From NCBI GenBank assembly GCA_016838895.1, contig JAEKNU010000008.1, positions 1 through 64,000 of the forward strand: a DNA stretch of 64,000 bases, given 5' to 3'. Under the pieces are notes generated by a model that made no database searches, was not told the DNA's origin, and saw only the letters and a list, made by a program, of their open reading frames with translations. Below, one piece after another: positions 7,575 through 26,571 of this stretch. Made by a program: the position numbers and the translations under genes. Position 1 is the stretch's first letter; the number at the start of each line of letters is the position of its first letter. The stretch is from Chloroflexota bacterium (GTDB lineage: Bacteria > Chloroflexota > Anaerolineae > Anaerolineales > Anaerolineaceae).

Positions 7575-7603
7575 AAAAAATGCCTTTCAGGCATTTTTTA
7601 TTT
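7575..7603. terminator. Bidirectional terminator between primase and toxin genes
   Basis: An 11-bp stem (AAAAAATGCCT at 7575-7585, AGGCATTTTTT at 7589-7599) with a 3-base loop and flanking A/T runs. It overlaps the last codons of the convergent toxin gene and can serve both strands. Confidence 0.75.
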
Positions 7604-7918
7604 TCTAATCCTATCTTGGGCGATTTTATATACCATATCATCACTTCGGATTGAAATCACAATAACTCTCATAACATTGTTATTTCTAACTAGCCCGTAA
7701 ACAATCCGAATCCCCAGTTTTCTTAATTTTATTTTTAAAAAGCCCGCCAAATGGCTCGACTGCCGATTCCCAAGAGGTTTTCCATACCCCCCTTCTGCTG
7801 CGGGGAGCGGATTTCCAGAAACTTTTTTTATGGATTTTAATACCTGGATTCGTTGAGAATTATCAAGCGATGCCAAATCCTCTTCTGCTTCATAAGAGTA
7901 TTCAACGCACCAACTCAT
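7598..7918 (-). CDS. RelE/ParE-family toxin of a type II toxin-antitoxin pair
   Basis: This 106-residue basic protein has the RelE/ParE core. It shows an opening beta strand with SYEAEEDL, a helix with NSQRIQVLKSIKKV, the segment GNPLPAAEGGYGKPLG and a strand RKLGIRIVYGLVRNNNVMRVIVISIRSDD. RelE relatives cleave mRNA on the ribosome and ParE relatives poison gyrase; the sequence does not settle which. Its start codon touches the stop of the antitoxin gene, so the two are translated together. It is converged on by the primase-like gene, and its 3' end overlaps the shared terminator. Such pairs commonly stabilise mobile elements, which fits this neighbourhood. Confidence 0.83.
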   Translation of the reverse strand: MSWCVEYSYEAEEDLASLDNSQRIQVLKSIKKVSGNPLPAAEGGYGKPLGNRQSSHLAGFLKIKLRKLGIRIVYGLVRNNNVMRVIVISIRSDDMVYKIAQDRIRK

Positions 7919-8250
7919 TACTCAATGTCCACATCAGTGTCGTCGTCAAGTTCAGATTCATCAATGCCCAAATTTTTCAAAACTTGTTCTTGGGTCAAGA
8001 ATCCTGTTTGTTTGGCTCGTTCCATACGCTCCTCAGCTTCAAAAAACAGGGCATACTCCTCAAGCATATCAACCATTTCCTCGTAGCGAACAGGATCAAC
8101 GAGAACACATGCTGGGACATTGTTTTTTAGAACAATCTTTGAACCACTTGTCTTGACTTCTGCAAAAATTTTATTCGCTTCTCCACGGTTAAACCGGGTT
8201 ATTGGAACGATGGCATCAGTTACTGCTTTTAAAGAAAGCGTTGTTCTCAT
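7918..8250 (-). CDS. Phd/YefM-family antitoxin
   Basis: This 110-residue protein has the Phd/YefM fold signature: an N-terminal DNA-binding part (ITRFNRGEANKIFAEVKTSGSKIVLKNNV) followed by ACVLVDPVRYEEMVDMLEEY. The acidic C-terminal tail (ESELDDDTDVDIE) probably wraps the toxin. It is the first gene of a two-gene operon and overlaps the toxin start by one base. Antitoxins of this family repress their own promoter. A promoter with repeated GACTTATT elements lies directly upstream (8291-8319), consistent with autoregulation. Confidence 0.83.
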   Translation of the reverse strand: MRTTLSLKAVTDAIVPITRFNRGEANKIFAEVKTSGSKIVLKNNVPACVLVDPVRYEEMVDMLEEYALFFEAEERMERAKQTGFLTQEQVLKNLGIDESELDDDTDVDIE

Positions 8251-8319: not shown

Positions 8320-8474
8320 TATAATCATCTATTTCTAATGCGATTATTTAAGCGCAGTAAGTGGAATTCCCCCAAAAACGACTGATTCATTAGGATTCGT
8401 GTTCAATGGGAATCCTTTTCTACACAGCCCACCTGTTTTTTATTGGACATAATAAAATTTTTGAATTCTCATTA

Positions 8475-9374
8475 TCAACTCAAATCTAAACCTACAGATT
8501 GGAGGACAGCTCGCGCAAGAATCATGTGACCAGGAATGGTGAGATGAACACCATCCCAAGTTAGTTCTTCAATCGACCCATGCTGCACAGCCATGTCGAA
8601 GATCGACTGGGTATCCACAAATAAAGTTTGATGTCTTTGAGCCAAACGGTTCACAGCTTCTCCAAATTTATCCATCATCACCCGCATAGGCTCGCTTTGC
8701 GGTAGGATTAAGTATGGCGTCATCAAAACCAATCCCTTGAGAATAGGTTTGATGGTTATCAGCAACTCATTCAGTGTTTTTTCATATTCATCCAACGTGA
8801 CATGGGGTTGCCCTTTATGATGACTATTGAATTGTTGCCAGACATCGTTAAAGCCAACACAAATTGAGAGCCAATCGGGTTGCAATTCAAGGACATCCTC
8901 TTGCCAGCGTGACTTCATCTCGCGAATAGTTCCTCCAGGAATACCCCGATTAAGAACGCAAACATGATTCGATGGCCAACAAGCAGTAATCAGCCCATCA
9001 ACAAAACTAACATATCCTTTGCCCAGATCAGCATGATTCATGGGATCCCGATCACAGGCTGTGATCGAATCTCCAATCATAACCCAGGTGCTGTTCTGTA
9101 AAACTTGCATTTTTAAGCTTTGATAACCTACCTCAACAGCACTATTCAACCAATCTACTTTTTGGATTCCTTTGTTTCTGCGGTGATTAACCAAACTGCG
9201 TGCCAGGAAAGAAGGCTGATAACCAGTTTCAGCGATAACGCGCTCAATTCTATTGCGCGTTTCTGGTGAAACATCACAACGCTGATTCAGCACCCTAGAC
9301 ACTGTCTGGGGAGAGACATTGCACATTTTGGCGATATCTTTAATCACTAACCGGTTTTTATGCTCGCTTACCAT
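8475..9374 (-). CDS. Fusion of a LacI-type DNA-binding domain with an SGNH/GDSL hydrolase
   Basis: This 299-residue protein joins two families. Residues 8-68 are a complete LacI-type helix-turn-helix with hinge helix (IKDIAKMCNVSPQTVSRVLN, then SFLARSL). Residues 95-299 are an SGNH hydrolase, not the usual periplasmic-binding-protein sensor. The hydrolase shows block I GDSIT with Ser103, a conserved-Gly block (NRGIPGGTIRE), block III GFNDVW with Asn176, and the Asp274/His277 pair (DGVHLT). All catalytic residues are present, so it could be an active carbohydrate esterase (acetyl-esterase-like), a ligand sensor, or both. No signal peptide is seen, fitting a cytoplasmic DNA-binding protein. It lies 194 bases downstream of araA on the same strand. 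One continuous frame with no homopolymer at the junction argues against an assembly artefact. Confidence 0.85.
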   Translation of the reverse strand: MVSEHKNRLVIKDIAKMCNVSPQTVSRVLNQRCDVSPETRNRIERVIAETGYQPSFLARSLVNHRRNKGIQKVDWLNSAVEVGYQSLKMQVLQNSTWVMIGDSITACDRDPMNHADLGKGYVSFVDGLITACWPSNHVCVLNRGIPGGTIREMKSRWQEDVLELQPDWLSICVGFNDVWQQFNSHHKGQPHVTLDEYEKTLNELLITIKPILKGLVLMTPYLILPQSEPMRVMMDKFGEAVNRLAQRHQTLFVDTQSIFDMAVQHGSIEELTWDGVHLTIPGHMILARAVLQSVGLDLS

Positions 9375-9498: not shown

Positions 9499-9521
9499 TT
9501 GAATTAATATAATCAATTCAA
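9499..9521. promoter_or_regulatory. Inverted repeat upstream of the LacI-SGNH fusion gene
   Basis: TTGAATT (9499-9505) and AATTCAA (9515-9521) form an inverted repeat with a 9-base AT-rich spacer, between araA and the fusion gene. It could be an operator for the fusion protein. It lacks the central CG of classical LacI operators, so the link is tentative. Confidence 0.3.
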
Positions 9522-9568: not shown

Positions 9569-11080
9569 CTAAATACCTTTACTTATTTGGTAGGACATAT
9601 CATTCCAGCGTAATTTTTCCTTAAAGTTCTGTACTTGGGTATTCTCGTCTATCAACAGAAATTCAATACCAGCAATCTCCGCAAAATCATGCAACTGCTC
9701 TGCTGACACTGCATAACTAAAACTTGTATGATGGGCACCACCTGCATAAATCCAGGACGCAGCAGCGGTTTTTAGGTTCGGACGAGGCAGCCAAAGGGCG
9801 TGTGCCACCGGCAACTTAGGAAGCGGCTGTTCAATCTGGACAACATCAACAACATTTGCGACCATTCGGAAACGCTGGCCCATATCCATAATAGAAGTAA
9901 CGATCGCCTGACCAATGTTGGCATCAAAAATCAATCGTATCGGATCAGACTTTCCACCGATCGAGAGAGGTAGAATATCCAGCTTGGGCTTTACACCTGG
10001 TTTAGCAATCGATTCACAGACCTCCAGCATGTGAGCTCCAAGGACTCTGTCTCCGGTGGCGCTATAGTGATAGGTGTAGTCTTCCATAAAAGAAACCCCA
10101 CCCGGCATTCCGTCTGCCATGACTTTCATTGCGCGAACAAGTGCTGCCGTCTTCCAATCTCCTTCCGCGCCAAAACCGTAACCATCGCGCATAAGGCGCT
10201 GAACAGCCAGTCCGGGTAACTGTGTCAAGCCATGCAGATCTTCAAAAGTGGTTGTGAAAGCCTTGAAATTACCTGCAGTCAGGAAATTTCTCATGCCAAC
10301 CTCGATGCGCGCGCCTTCGCACAAAGAAGTGTTGCGTTCACCACCATGCCGTAATACCGCGGTGACATCATACTCGTCGAGATAAGCCTGCGTCATTTGG
10401 TTGATTTCAGCATCACTGGCATCATTTACTGCCTTGACTAAATCCCCCACGCCGTAACCGTAAACATCATATCCAAACTGGATCTGAGCTTGAACCTTAT
10501 CACCTTCAGTGACAGCAACATCACGCATGTTATCACCAAAGCGGGCTACTTTCGCACCCTGCCAATCAGCCCAGGCTGCCACAGCGCGTGCCCATCTCCC
10601 CAACTCACTTTGAACTTCAGCATCCTGCCAGTGACCGACAACGACCTTTCGCTCTAGGCGCAAACGGGAACAGATAAATCCAAACTCACGGTCACCGTGT
10701 GCTGCTTGGTTGAGGTTCATGAAGTTCATGTCAATTTCAGACCAAGGAATTTCGCGGTTGTACTGCGTGTGCAAATGCGCGAACGGTTTCTTGAGTGAGG
10801 TCAAGCCTGCGATCCACATTTTGGCAGGTGAGAATGTATGCATCCAGGTGATTAGCCCAATACAGTTCTTCGCAGAATTGGCTTCAAGACACAAATCACG
10901 GATCGCATCAGGTGTGGTCAATAAAGGTTTAAACACTACTTTGACCGGCATATACACCGAAGCACACAATGCCACCGCAATTTCACGCGAGTGAGCCGCG
11001 ACCTGTTCGAGGGTTTCTTGACCATAAAGGTGCTGACTGCCGGTCACAAACCAGATTTCGTATTGCTTTAAGTCAATCAT
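9569..11080 (-). CDS. araA: L-arabinose isomerase
   Basis: AraA converts L-arabinose to L-ribulose in the cytoplasm using Mn2+. The protein has about 503 residues, the usual family length. The conserved metal and catalytic segments are visible: [15 protein letters not shown], the GAHMLEVC His and the GGAHHTSF His, matching Glu306, Glu333, His350 and His450 of the E. coli enzyme. I place the start at ATG 11080 ([11 protein letters not shown]), which has GGAG eight bases upstream, rather than at an in-frame codon 17 residues earlier that lies inside araD. The araD stop overlaps this start region, showing translational coupling. It is the last enzyme gene of the araB-araD-araA series. Confidence 0.95.
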
Positions 11081-11793
11081 GAGTATGTCTCCCGAATTTT
11101 TTTTTCTGTCCATAATAGGCGTTTTCACCATGCTTTCTGAGATAATGCTTATCTAATAACTCTTGCTGCAAGGGTGGAATACTTGGCGTAAACTGCTGAG
11201 TGTGAAAATTCATAAATGCGACTTCCTCAAGCACTACGGCATTGTGGACAGCATCTAATTGGAGATACCCCCCAAACAAATGGACCATGGCTATAAACAA
11301 GCACAGCTGGAACGGCATCAGGGTCCTTGTCTATGAATGTTTCTTTTATGATCAACCCGGTCTCCTTTTCATATTCTCCTTGAATCTCAACAGGTGTCAT
11401 CATTCGGGTGCAGGGAATCTCACCATAGAAATAATCAGCATGGGTAGTGCCGAGTGCAACAAGTCCCTGTCCTGCCTGTGCAAAACTGGTTGCCCATCGA
11501 CTATGGGTATGAACAACGCCACCGATATTGGGAAACGCTTTGTATAATTCGATATGGGTCGGTGTGTCAGACGATGATTGTAAACCTCCATTCACTACCT
11601 TACTCGTTTCCAAATCCACGACCACCATGTCTTCAGCCTTCATCGTGCTATACGAAACACCAGATGGTTTTATTACCATTAAGGCTTGCTGACGATCAAT
11701 GCCAGAGACATTGCCCCAAGTGAAAGTGACCAATCCCTGTTTGGGCAACAACAGATTTGCTTGAAACACCTGTTCTTTTAATTCCTCCAACAT
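11073..11793 (-). pseudogene. araD: L-ribulose-5-phosphate 4-epimerase, frameshifted in a G6 tract
   Basis: AraD interconverts L-ribulose-5-phosphate and D-xylulose-5-phosphate. The first 172 residues are intact and include the class II aldolase fold with the zinc site HTHS near residue 95 and THADYF. The reading frame then breaks within a run of six G on the coding strand (C6 at 11268-11273). One G fewer would give GPFVWG followed by [17 protein letters not shown], exactly matching the family, and would run on to the conserved C-terminal NAYYGQ. As written, the product ends in an unrelated tail ([13 protein letters not shown]), losing the C-terminal helices. It may be a sequencing error, slippage-based expression or a true mutation. 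The remaining frame stops at 11073, overlapping the araA start. Confidence 0.85.
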
Positions 11794-11796
11794 TGT

Positions 11797-13398
11797 TCAC
11801 CTCAATTCCTCAATTGCGACTCTTTCAATGGAAAGTCCTTTTTTATATAGCTTCATGAAAGTCGCAAAACCAGCTACATCCGCGGGGTCGGGCTCAATTG
11901 TCAAGACATTTTCTCTGGCAAAAACATTCTTGGTGAGATAGACCTCGAGTGGCTCATTCCCAGAATTTTTCAGCATGTACATTGCCAGTAAAGCGATTCC
12001 CCAAGCGCCGCCATCGCCCGCAGTTTTCATCACTGAGACGGGGACATTCATCGCTGCCGCCATCATCTTTTGCCCAACATCCTTAGTTTTAAAATAACCA
12101 CCGTGACCGAGGAGTTGGTCGAGTTTTACTTTTTCCTGAACAAAAAGAGTGTCCATTCCGATCTTCAGTGCACCAAGCGACGTATACAAATGTGTACGCA
12201 TAAAATTTGCCAGCGTGAATCGGCTGCCAGGTGTGCGGGTGAAAATCGGGCGTCCTTGTTCAAAACCAGTGATATGCTCACCCGAAACGTAGTTGTAAGC
12301 TAGTAGCCCTCCCCCGTCGGTATTGCCCTTAAGTCCCTGCCGATATAGTATTTCGAATAATTTGGAATGATCAACCTCAATTTTTAATAATTGCGTGAAT
12401 TCATGGAACAATTCCACCCATGCATTCAGGTCTGATGTACAGTTGTTGCTATGCACCATGGCAACTGGCTTCCCAGTAGGTGTAGTTACCATATCGATTT
12501 CGGGATAAAGTTTTGATAATGGTTTCTCGAGAACAATCATGGCAAAAACAGAAGTACCTGCAGAAACGTTACCTGTACGGATGGCAACACTGTTTGTAGC
12601 TACCATCCCTGTACCTGCATCGCCTTCTGGAGGACAGAGGGGGACCCCCGCATGGAAATCGCTTGTCGGGTCGAGTAGTTTTGCACCGTTTTCGGTCAGT
12701 ATTCCAGCTCTGTCTCCCGCAACCAGCACTTTTGGCAAAATGTCCTGCAGTCTCCAGACAATATGTGAAACTTTAAGTTGATCGTTAAACTGCTCAATCC
12801 TGCGGATATCATAATCATTAGTATTGCTGTCAACAGGGAACATGCCCGAGGCATCACAAATACCTAATACTTTTTGACCTGTAAATTGCCAATGGACGTA
12901 GCCCGCCAACGTAGTGAGATATGCCACATCTTTGACATGCGGCTCATTATTTAGGATCGCTTGGTAGAGATGGGCGATGCTCCAGCGCTGGGGAATGTTG
13001 AACTGAAATAACCCTGTTAGTTTCTCAGCTGCCTGTCCAGTCATGGTATTCCGCCAGGTACGGAATGGAACAAGCAAGTTGTCATCTTTATCAAATGCCA
13101 TATAACCATGCATCATGGCGCTCAAACCAAGTGAACCGATACTTTGGAGAGGGATTTCGAATTTATTTTGCACATCAGTGCGTAAACTGTAAAAAGCCTC
13201 CTGCAAACCCAACCAGACATCTTCCAGATGGTAAGTCCAAATGCCGTTATTATAGCAATTCTCCCACTCATAACTCCCTGAAGCAATTGGGCTATGATCT
13301 TCATCAATCAAGACAGCTTTAATTCGGGTTGAACCAAGTTCTATGCCCAGAGCAGTTCTTCCACTGGTGATTGCTTTTTGGAGCTCATTTTCTCGCAT
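11797..13398 (-). CDS. araB: FGGY-family carbohydrate kinase, probable ribulokinase
   Basis: This 533-residue protein is an FGGY kinase. It has the N-terminal phosphate-1 motif [16 protein letters not shown], the substrate region MMHGYMAFD and WRNTMT, and the C-terminal ATP site (GHGGYFKT, then [15 protein letters not shown]). It belongs to the xylulokinase-like subgroup that replaces classical AraB in many anaerobes. Its place directly before araD and araA points to L-ribulose phosphorylation. Translation probably begins at ATG 13398, six bases after AGGAG. The upstream ATG at 13404 overlaps that ribosome site too closely. A 187-base gap separates it from the upstream PfkB gene, leaving room for a separate promoter. 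Confidence 0.85.
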
Positions 13399-13585
13399 GA
13401 TCATCTCCTGGCTAATTAAATTCGTTACATATAATTCTTATCTTGACATAAATTGTGGAAGTCTTGTTTGTTTGAAGAAAAATTTCAAGCTCCAAAAATG
13501 GTAAGAATAAATCCTTGTCTCCTTGTTCCATATCAACAATGCGATGGGATGTTGCCAGCAGAAAGGAGAGAAAGTACATGAAAAA

Positions 13586-23358: not shown

Positions 23359-24372
23359 TTATTTAACCGGCGGTGGGCCAGAGCTTTGTCTAATGGATAA
23401 TTTGGATTTTAAAATTTTTTGGGCGGGTGCCATATTTTTTTGGCGTAAGAATTTGATCAATATTTCAACCCCAACTTTTCCCATTTCATCAGTTGGAAAG
23501 TCCATAGTGGTCAGGGTAGGCAACAATCGTTCTGCTCGTAGTGGGGATGCTAAAGAAACAACTGAAAAATCTGCCGGAATGTCTCTTCCATCATCCCGGA
23601 TGGCTTGATATAAACCAGGTAATCCGGCTTCATTAGGTGTTACCAGAGCAGTCAAATCTGAATGATCAGATAGTAGTTTTTGCAATAGGTGATATGCGTC
23701 TTTGGTTGTAGGCTCACATTCACCATAAATAATAGGGAGGTCATATTTACGAATTGCTTTTTGGTACCCCTCACTACAAAAAACAGCAGGGCCATAACCT
23801 GAATTGACAAGTTTCGGAGAGTAGTTGATATATGCTATCTTTTTATGCCCCATGCCAACCAGATAATCAAAAGCTTCTTCAATTGCTGTAGTGTGATCAA
23901 GATCAACAAATCCAATATCAGTGTTATCCTCCGTTCGCCCAATCATGGCAAAAGGAAAGCCTGATTCACGCAAACGGATCATCCAAGGATCATTGATACG
24001 TACTTCCATAAAGATGACGCCATCCACTAAACCTTGTTGGGTCAGATTGACCAATGCTTCAACATCTTTAGGAGAACGCCATAATAAGATTGCATATCCT
24101 TCTTTTTCAGCAGCATCGATTGCAGCTGAAACAAACTCAAATTGCATTTCCGAAAGCCCTGTTTTGTACTTTGGAAAAAACAAACCTAGAATTTTGCTTT
24201 CCTTATTAGCTAAACGTCTTGCCAATTCATTTGGATGATAACCTAGTTCATCAATCGCTTGTTGGATACGCGCACGGGTCTCCTCAGAAATAGGCCGCTT
24301 TCCGCTTAGAGCGTGAGAGACTGTACTAAGTGTTACTCCGGCTTTATTAGCTACATCTTGCATGGTTGGCAT
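23359..24372 (-). CDS. LacI-family transcriptional regulator
   Basis: This 337-residue regulator has the standard LacI architecture. The N-terminal helix-turn-helix (MQDVANKAGVTLSTVSHAL, residues 4-22) and hinge helix (PNELARRLANK, near 52-62) are followed by the periplasmic-binding-protein-like ligand domain. It heads the sugar locus and is preceded by two abutting operator palindromes overlapping its own -10 box, so it is very likely autoregulated. It may also repress the transport and hydrolase genes by read-through, or through operators I did not recognise in the 150-base gap. The inducer is probably a sugar from the imported oligosaccharide. Confidence 0.92.
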   Translation of the reverse strand: MPTMQDVANKAGVTLSTVSHALSGKRPISEETRARIQQAIDELGYHPNELARRLANKESKILGLFFPKYKTGLSEMQFEFVSAAIDAAEKEGYAILLWRSPKDVEALVNLTQQGLVDGVIFMEVRINDPWMIRLRESGFPFAMIGRTEDNTDIGFVDLDHTTAIEEAFDYLVGMGHKKIAYINYSPKLVNSGYGPAVFCSEGYQKAIRKYDLPIIYGECEPTTKDAYHLLQKLLSDHSDLTALVTPNEAGLPGLYQAIRDDGRDIPADFSVVSLASPLRAERLLPTLTTMDFPTDEMGKVGVEILIKFLRQKNMAPAQKILKSKLSIRQSSGPPPVK

Positions 24373-24387
24373 AATAGTCTCCTAAAT

Positions 24388-24445
24388 TATCAAAGCGCTT
24401 TGTCAAACCGCTTTGATAATAGCACATTTTTTGTTTACTTGTCAA
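24388..24445 (-). promoter_or_regulatory. Promoter and tandem operators of the LacI regulator
   Basis: On the minus strand TTGACA (24445-24440) and TATTAT (24421-24416) are 18 bases apart. Directly downstream and touching the -10 box are two LacI-type palindromes: TCAAAGCGGTTTGA (24416-24403) and CAAAGCGCTTTG (24402-24391). The whole block is flanked by TATCAAAGCG arms. This arrangement would block RNA polymerase when the repressor binds. Confidence 0.75.
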
Positions 24446-25253: not shown

Positions 25254-25365
25254 TGTTCCATTTTCATTGGGAAAATGCTACAATGATTTGTAACAACCGC
25301 ACTTTAATAATCGAATATTGGGAAAATTTTGGATTGCTCACAGACGTTTTTCACAGGAGGAAACG

Positions 25366-26571
25366 ATGACACAGCAATCCAAGGAAAGTAAAACAAAGCG
25401 ACGCGGCAACAATGAGGGAAGTATTCAACCAACTCAAAATGGAACATGGCGAGCTTGGGTGACATTGAGTTCAGGTAGGCGTATCAGCAAAACACACTCT
25501 ACAAAAACTGAAGCACGTAAATGGTTGCAGCAAAAACTGTCAGAAGAGGAACAACCTCCACAGGCTGAGCTGACATTTGGAGAATACCTATTGGAATGGT
25601 TTGAGAACCATTCCTCCCAGATCAAAGAATCCACGCAGTGTGATTACGAAATCATCATCCACAAGTACATCCTGCCAGAATTAAGGGGTGTGGTTCTCAA
25701 TACACTTCACCGGTCCGTGTTTGATAAGTACTATACAAACTTGCGAAAAATTCCAGTAGGGGACACACAAATCCGGTATATTCATCGGATTATCCACAAG
25801 GCACTGCAAGATGCCGTGAACGACCGGATTTTGTCATACAATCCCAGTGATGGTGCAAAAGCCCCGAAAAAGCAAAAATTGCAGCGAATCAACTGTCCGC
25901 TAAATGAAGAGCAATGTGACTTGCTGTTATCTACTACCATGCAGAATCCAATTGGACCGATAATCTACCTGGCCCTCAAAACAGGCATGCGACAAGGTGA
26001 GTTGTTTGCCCTGAAATGGGAAGATATCAATTGGCAAAATCAGCAGATTCACATCAAACGTAATATGCAGCGTGTCTTACGCGGAGGAAAACAAGTACGC
26101 GATTTCAGCACACCAAAAACGGCTTCAAGCAATCGAGTAATTGTTATTGGAGATAAAACCATTGAGGTCTTACGATTTCAACAGAGGGAAGTTGAACTGA
26201 AAAAGATGCTGGCAAAGAAACGCTGGCGGGAAAATGATCTTGTGTTTCCGTCAAGCATCGGTACCCCGCTAAGTCAAGGCAATTTCACAAGACAATTTGC
26301 AATGACCCTCAAGGAAGCCGGACTGCGACATATCCGTTTTCATGACCTTCGGCACATTGCCGCTTCAATCATGCTCAATCATGGCATTCCCCTCTTGACG
26401 GTCTCTCATATTCTGGGACACGCGCAGCCATCCACCACATTGAACATGTATGGTCACCAATTCAGCGCCATGGAAGTGCAAGCCGCTTGTCTGATGGATG
26501 ATATTTTCTTCAAATCGCAACCCAGTTCACTACCAGCAGAGTTTCTCAGCCCGTCGAATCTTAAAAAATGA
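25366..26571 (+). CDS. Tyrosine recombinase/integrase
   Basis: This 401-residue phage-type integrase has three parts. An arm-binding N-terminal domain has NEGSIQPTQNGTWRAWVTL. A SAM-like core-binding domain spans about 65-160. The catalytic domain has the Arg in LKTGMRQGELFALKW, the HDLRH box, LGHAQPSTTLNMYGH and the tyrosine nucleophile in the last of these. I chose ATG 25366 because AGGAGG lies five bases upstream; an in-frame codon at 25318 lacks one. It points toward tRNA-Lys, whose 3' end is 150 bases away, so the tRNA is the probable attachment site. The protein is full length and looks active. Confidence 0.92.
   Translation: MTQQSKESKTKRRGNNEGSIQPTQNGTWRAWVTLSSGRRISKTHSTKTEARKWLQQKLSEEEQPPQAELTFGEYLLEWFENHSSQIKESTQCDYEIIIHKYILPELRGVVLNTLHRSVFDKYYTNLRKIPVGDTQIRYIHRIIHKALQDAVNDRILSYNPSDGAKAPKKQKLQRINCPLNEEQCDLLLSTTMQNPIGPIIYLALKTGMRQGELFALKWEDINWQNQQIHIKRNMQRVLRGGKQVRDFSTPKTASSNRVIVIGDKTIEVLRFQQREVELKKMLAKKRWRENDLVFPSSIGTPLSQGNFTRQFAMTLKEAGLRHIRFHDLRHIAASIMLNHGIPLLTVSHILGHAQPSTTLNMYGHQFSAMEVQAACLMDDIFFKSQPSSLPAEFLSPSNLKK

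Follow-up and report, generated by a model that had tools for sequence, protein, structure and literature searches.

The DNA examined here, referred to as the window, is a stretch of 64,000 nucleotides from a member of the Anaerolineaceae (Chloroflexota). An uninterrupted open reading frame on its minus strand (9374 to 8475, beginning with ATG) encodes a 299-residue protein in which a LacI-type DNA-binding headpiece is fused to an SGNH/GDSL esterase. A reading of the letters alone had claimed a LacI helix-turn-helix (HTH) and hinge (residues 8-68) and a complete SGNH esterase in one gene, and the two parts were confirmed by separate matches. Pfam placed LacI (PF00356) at residues 11-55 (E 1.3e-16) and Lipase_GDSL_2 at residues 100-284 (E 5.5e-18), both passing the curated gathering cut-offs, and a search of PDB sequences matched residues ~10-66 to the headpieces of PurR, LacI, and CcpA and residues 96-297 to the acetyl xylan esterase Axe2 (E 6e-57). 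From the N terminus, the gene encodes the HTH (residues 8-55; 9210-9353), a hinge helix region (residues 56-68, LARSLVN..; 9171-9209) with the LacI-family motif ARSL that aligns with ordinary LacI regulators of relatives, a linker (residues 69-88; 9111-9170), and the Axe2-like esterase domain (residues 89-297; 8484-9110), all on the minus strand. The AlphaFold model, for which the protein was aligned with proteins from the fetched loci, had a mean pLDDT of 90.7; the HTH and SGNH domains were mostly above 95, residues 54-68 formed the hinge helix, and residues 69-88 were disordered (pLDDT about 48-59). An N-terminal HTH and a hinge helix with an ARSL-type motif (GYQPSFLARSL), both hallmarks of the LacI/GalR family, are thus present, whereas Pfam detected no Peripla_BP domain and an SGNH hydrolase occupies residues 98-290 instead of the periplasmic-binding-protein (PBP) sensor core. 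Judged by that core, the protein is not a canonical LacI-family regulator, and it probably binds DNA in the manner of that family.

The fusion gene forms the 3' end of a block of arabinose genes that lie on the same strand in the order araB, araD, araA, fusion. The L-arabinose isomerase gene araA (9569-11131, identified by its Pfam AraA domains) is directly upstream of the fusion and is preceded by a gene for an araD-like epimerase (11132-11793; Aldolase_II) and one for an araB-type FGGY kinase (11797-13404; Pfam). The araD-like gene is frameshifted around codon 175 (an open reading frame at 11227-11793 plus a remnant), as seen from the two frames returned by tblastn against the araD of a relative; this may be a real lesion or an assembly error, and an intact araD is present in the second ara operon of the same genome. 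Just downstream of the fusion, two small overlapping genes (7598-8250, minus strand) are likely to form a toxin-antitoxin pair, judging from a weak, sub-cut-off Phd/YefM antitoxin match in the first. Elsewhere in the window, a tyrosine integrase gene (25318-26571, plus strand) lies ~1 kb from an ordinary LacI regulator gene on the opposite strand, and a mobile element may adjoin the sugar cluster.

A search of 147 genomes of the family yielded a second fusion gene, in a different genus (genome G138, contig C18, 61659-62528). Over residues 7-296 the two proteins share 66% identity, the junction is free of gaps and stop codons, and the linkers are of equal length. The gene order there is araB, aldo/keto reductase, araD, araA, fusion, and the araA and araB of that locus are 85% and 72% identical, respectively, to those of the window. 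The arabinose context noted in the sequence-only reading is kept across two genera, with araA adjoining the fusion on the same strand, and the relative carries the same architecture directly downstream of araA. Each of the two genomes has, besides, a second ara operon whose regulator is an ordinary LacI-PBP protein (contig C157, locus L104, in the window genome, G000; contig C11, locus L114, in G138), so that the operon linked to the fusion is an extra, separately wired copy.

Comparison of the two fusions showed sharply different rates of change along the protein. The HTH was the slowest-evolving part (90% identity, dN 0.067, dS about 1.8), followed by the SGNH domain (66% identity, dN 0.227), whereas the linker had a dN of 0.94 over residues 69-88, about equal to its dS, and was aligned without gaps at 25% identity over residues 69-92. 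The low dN values of the HTH and SGNH domains relative to the linker, where dN approximates dS, indicate that each domain is under purifying selection, with both ends maintained and the linker acting as a drifting spacer. These comparisons bear on the suggestion that the fusion arose by faulty assembly or annotation, or that it is translated as two proteins by way of an internal start. The fusion is known from two genomes, both of them drafts, and stand-alone esterases start at the position that corresponds to Met89 of the window protein. However, the second genome carries the fusion as well, 66% identical and with a linker of equal length; CTG stands at the position of Met89 in the G138 gene, and no Shine-Dalgarno-like sequence before Met89 was evident by eye. 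An internal translation start at Met89 was rejected on the latter two grounds. Separate genes in close relatives, or a break near residues 70-95, had been put forward as the mark of an artefact; the closest relative is likewise fused and unbroken, and we consider that explanation, already largely refuted, to be very improbable.

The distribution of the fusion was surveyed in overlapping samples of the family (147 genomes), order (400), class (396), and phylum (400), about 1,200 genomes in all. No third fusion was found in these samples at the thresholds used, the esterases other than the two fusions being stand-alone proteins, nor was one found in plasmids or in a peptide-pattern scan of genome contigs that reaches close relatives only. 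The start Met of the stand-alone esterases aligns with residue 89 of the fusion, which locates the fusion junction at that residue. Of the stand-alone genes inspected, several have glycoside hydrolase genes (GH3, GH35) as neighbors, and others have housekeeping genes. In a phylogenetic tree, the two fused esterases formed a single clade (support 100/100) on a long stem, closest to stand-alone esterases of the Axe2 type from the same class. Among ordinary HTHs of the family, the best matches to the fusion (about 51-63% identity, and 55-63% for the nearest) come from LacI-PBP regulators some 340-390 residues long, and three of the four closest such regulators (in G057, G050, and G038) are encoded divergently from araA. 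These relationships suggest as the simplest history that an ara-type LacI regulator probably lost its PBP core and that its headpiece was joined to an Axe2-like esterase gene.

The esterase domain closely resembles Axe2 in both fold and active site. Foldseek matched the C-terminal domain to Axe2 (4jko) with an E value of 6.6e-24 and a TM score of 0.91 normalised to the target, identifying the SGNH fold, and the structural alignment showed 42% identity. In the PDB alignment, Ser103, Asp274, and His277 correspond to Ser15, Asp191, and His194 of Axe2, the residues changed in its catalytic-mutant PDB entries (S15A, D191A, and H194A). The catalytic motifs named by the earlier reading are all present, encoded on the minus strand by the codons for Ser103 (in GDSIT; 9066-9068), the oxyanion residue Asn176 (in GFND; 8847-8849), and Asp274-x-x-His277 (8544-8555). 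These four residues and a further oxyanion residue, Gly147, are invariant in 25 stand-alone relatives and retained in both fusions, which therefore possess the full Axe2-like catalytic set. Of 62 esterase positions that are near-invariant in the same 25 relatives, 51 are retained in both fusions. Two replacements close to the catalytic motifs in sequence (Asp106 to Ala and Ser146 to Pro) are common to both, as is a loop near residues 111-118 that is ~5 residues shorter than in the stand-alone esterases; these shared changes fit an altered role of the fused enzymes. The window protein lacks equivalents of Axe2 Arg55 and Trp215, both of which are present in the G138 protein. Axe2 PDB entries bear titles that identify these as positions probed by mutation, and on account of their loss the quaternary structure of the window protein may differ from that of Axe2.

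The altered role could be that of an esterase-derived sensor without turnover, which would bind a sugar or acetyl ligand but have lost its enzymatic function in the cell, like the kinase-like domain of BzdR, a natural regulator that has lost catalysis (PMC3602430). The long stem leading to the two fused esterases, the two shared replacements, and the shortened loop near the active-site motifs are consistent with such a protein. A pure ligand-binder would, however, be expected to lose some of its catalytic residues, whereas Ser, Gly, Asn, Asp, and His have all been kept after divergence to 66% identity. We consider loss of turnover rather unlikely and the sensor to be probably still catalytic.

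LacI-family operators are mostly even palindromes with a central CG (PMC4052901). The ordinary LacI-PBP relatives have AACGWTANCG/CGNTAWCGTT sites upstream of their own genes or between these and araA, often overlapping, and sites of the AACGWTANCG type were also present in the second ara operons of both fusion genomes (L104 and L114). When the motif of the relatives, AACGWTANCGNTAWCGTT, was searched for, strong sites were found upstream of most LacI-PBP relatives, and neither fusion locus scored above chance. The spacers between araA and the fusion in the two genomes aligned no better than shuffled sequences, comparison of the araA-fusion and araB-upstream regions by footprinting between the two genomes exceeded shuffles marginally at best, and no conserved central-CG palindrome was found around the fusion or araB in these genomes. 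A CGATT-NN-TCGTT element common to both araA-fusion spacers was dropped, as by our estimate two 200-base stretches would share about one such match by chance. The AT-rich palindrome TTGAATT-N9-AATTCAA at 9499-9521, which the sequence-only reading had offered as the operator of the fusion, does exist and is the sole exact copy in the genome. It was not accepted as an operator, having AT-rich arms, no central CG, and no counterpart that could be found at the G138 fusion locus; an imperfect copy with one mismatch (8461-8483) flanks the same gene and spans the stop codon of the fusion. The recognition helices of both fusions contain Pro (SPQTVSRVLN) where relatives usually have Thr or Val (S[T/V]QT[V/I]SRV), a substitution that suggests a DNA target probably shifted relative to that of the LacI-PBP proteins.

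Two further observations concern the ordinary regulators. Upstream of the LacI-PBP sugar regulators of the family, the AACGWTANCG half-sites are arranged as overlapping arrays in 6- and 12-base register (L104:195-260, L103:6285-6350, L097:7060-7110, and L114:14425-14485); with this register each half-site could serve two dimers, and binding is possibly cooperative or competing. In the window, two central-CG palindromes of the type ATCAAAGCGNTTTGA (24389-24417) lie just upstream of an ordinary LacI regulator gene (23359-24372) and are likely to be operators of that regulator itself.

The results of the operator searches at the ara genes can also be read as pointing to an enzyme first and foremost, namely a bifunctional, sugar-catabolic esterase that carries a headpiece whose DNA binding is vestigial or only autoregulatory. 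The intact Axe2-like catalytic machinery and the location at the 3' end of the araB-D-A block agree with this account. A vestigial HTH would nevertheless drift as the linker does, whereas the HTH evolves most slowly of all parts (the dN and dS values being those given above) and has kept its recognition helix and hinge, and we regard a mainly enzymatic role as distinctly unlikely.

On balance, we think it probable that the fusion regulates transcription, most likely by locally repressing the araB-D-A block, its own gene, or both, with an esterase-derived sensor in place of the PBP core. A strongly constrained HTH speaks for DNA binding, an intact catalytic set for a working pocket, and a conserved place in the arabinose operon for control of, or by, pentose metabolism. 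A regulator is further supported by the retained ARSL hinge, the LacI-PBP affiliation of the nearest HTHs, the separate clade of the fused esterases with its long stem and shared changes near the active site, and the precedent of the Q1 chimera (PMC3602430). Against it we count the operator searches, which found none, the loss of the Axe2 Arg55 and Trp215 equivalents from the window protein, the blocking of in vivo induction by catalysis in Q1, and the restriction to two draft genomes.

For such a regulator we propose that an arabinose-type LacI protein exchanged its PBP core for an intracellular, Axe2-like acetyl-sugar esterase, which would serve as its dimerisation and sensor domain. Oligomerisation of the esterase domain would pair two HTH-hinge units on a palindromic operator; occupation of the esterase pocket by an acetylated pentose or oligosaccharide would then alter the packing or oligomeric state, so that the hinge helices release the DNA. 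As the catalytic residues are intact, hydrolysis of the bound ligand could reset the sensor. A rigid allosteric path of the LacI type is unlikely given the disordered 20-residue linker that the model places between the two parts, and a ligand-dependent change in oligomeric state or hinge-helix packing is more plausible. The synthetic Q1 chimera, which joins the XRE-type HTH of BzdR to an active shikimate kinase, binds operators, represses, and stays catalytic; its response to substrate in vitro requires the linker, and in vivo its catalysis prevented induction (PMC3602430). By the logic of BzdR and Q1, the fusion would be either a transient, self-resetting sensor or a responder to a product or poor substrate. 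That it is a natural catalytic self-resetting sensor, a LacI-type repressor released by an acetylated sugar and destroying that signal through deacetylation, is a possibility that we advance tentatively.

The earlier reading had named no described example and allowed that rare ones may exist. In the literature searched, which omits most subscription papers, we found no description of a LacI headpiece on an SGNH hydrolase, and this pairing appears to be new; an enzyme-derived sensor on an HTH, in contrast, was known before from BzdR (PMC3602430) and MocR (PMC5320631). BzdR and Q1 likewise link an HTH to an enzyme domain as sensor, and Q1 keeps its active site, as does the fusion judged by its residues, but their HTH and enzyme families are unrelated to those described here, and natural BzdR differs from the fusion in its lost catalysis. 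MocR regulators also carry an enzyme-fold effector domain, aminotransferase-like, on a DNA-binding domain, a GntR HTH; their folds, ligands, and families are different, and they are broadly distributed, whereas the fusion is found in two genomes so far. The acetyl esterase Aes of Escherichia coli, an inhibitor of the activator MalT (PMC10427625), ties an acetyl esterase to sugar-gene control, as proposed for the fusion, but is a separate protein that contacts MalT rather than being joined to a DNA-binding domain. Axe2 from Geobacillus stearothermophilus (PDB 3W7V and 4JKO), an acetyl-xylooligosaccharide esterase, has the fold and full catalytic set in common with the fusion but is a stand-alone, octameric enzyme (PMC6281622); the fusion has an HTH in front and a shorter loop after block I. 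The canonical LacI/GalR regulators divergent from araA in the same bacterial family share the HTH, hinge helix, and arabinose context, but have a PBP core and AACGWTANCG operators where the fusion has an SGNH esterase and loci devoid of those operators.

LacI headpieces almost always occur with a sugar-binding-protein core. Here that core has been swapped for an enzyme with an intact active site and a substrate class that fits the neighboring pathway. The evolution of regulators by recruitment of DNA-binding domains to enzymes has been modelled with built chimeras (BzdR/Q1; PMC3602430); the fusion is a natural case, apparently caught before the loss of catalysis, for which the stand-alone esterases and ordinary LacI-PBP regulators of relatives serve as comparison. 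If the self-resetting mechanism is true, the protein would be nature's equivalent of the synthetic Q1 chimera as a "missing link" between enzymes and regulators. The fusion also makes it possible to test whether a single protein can sense a signal and remove it as well.
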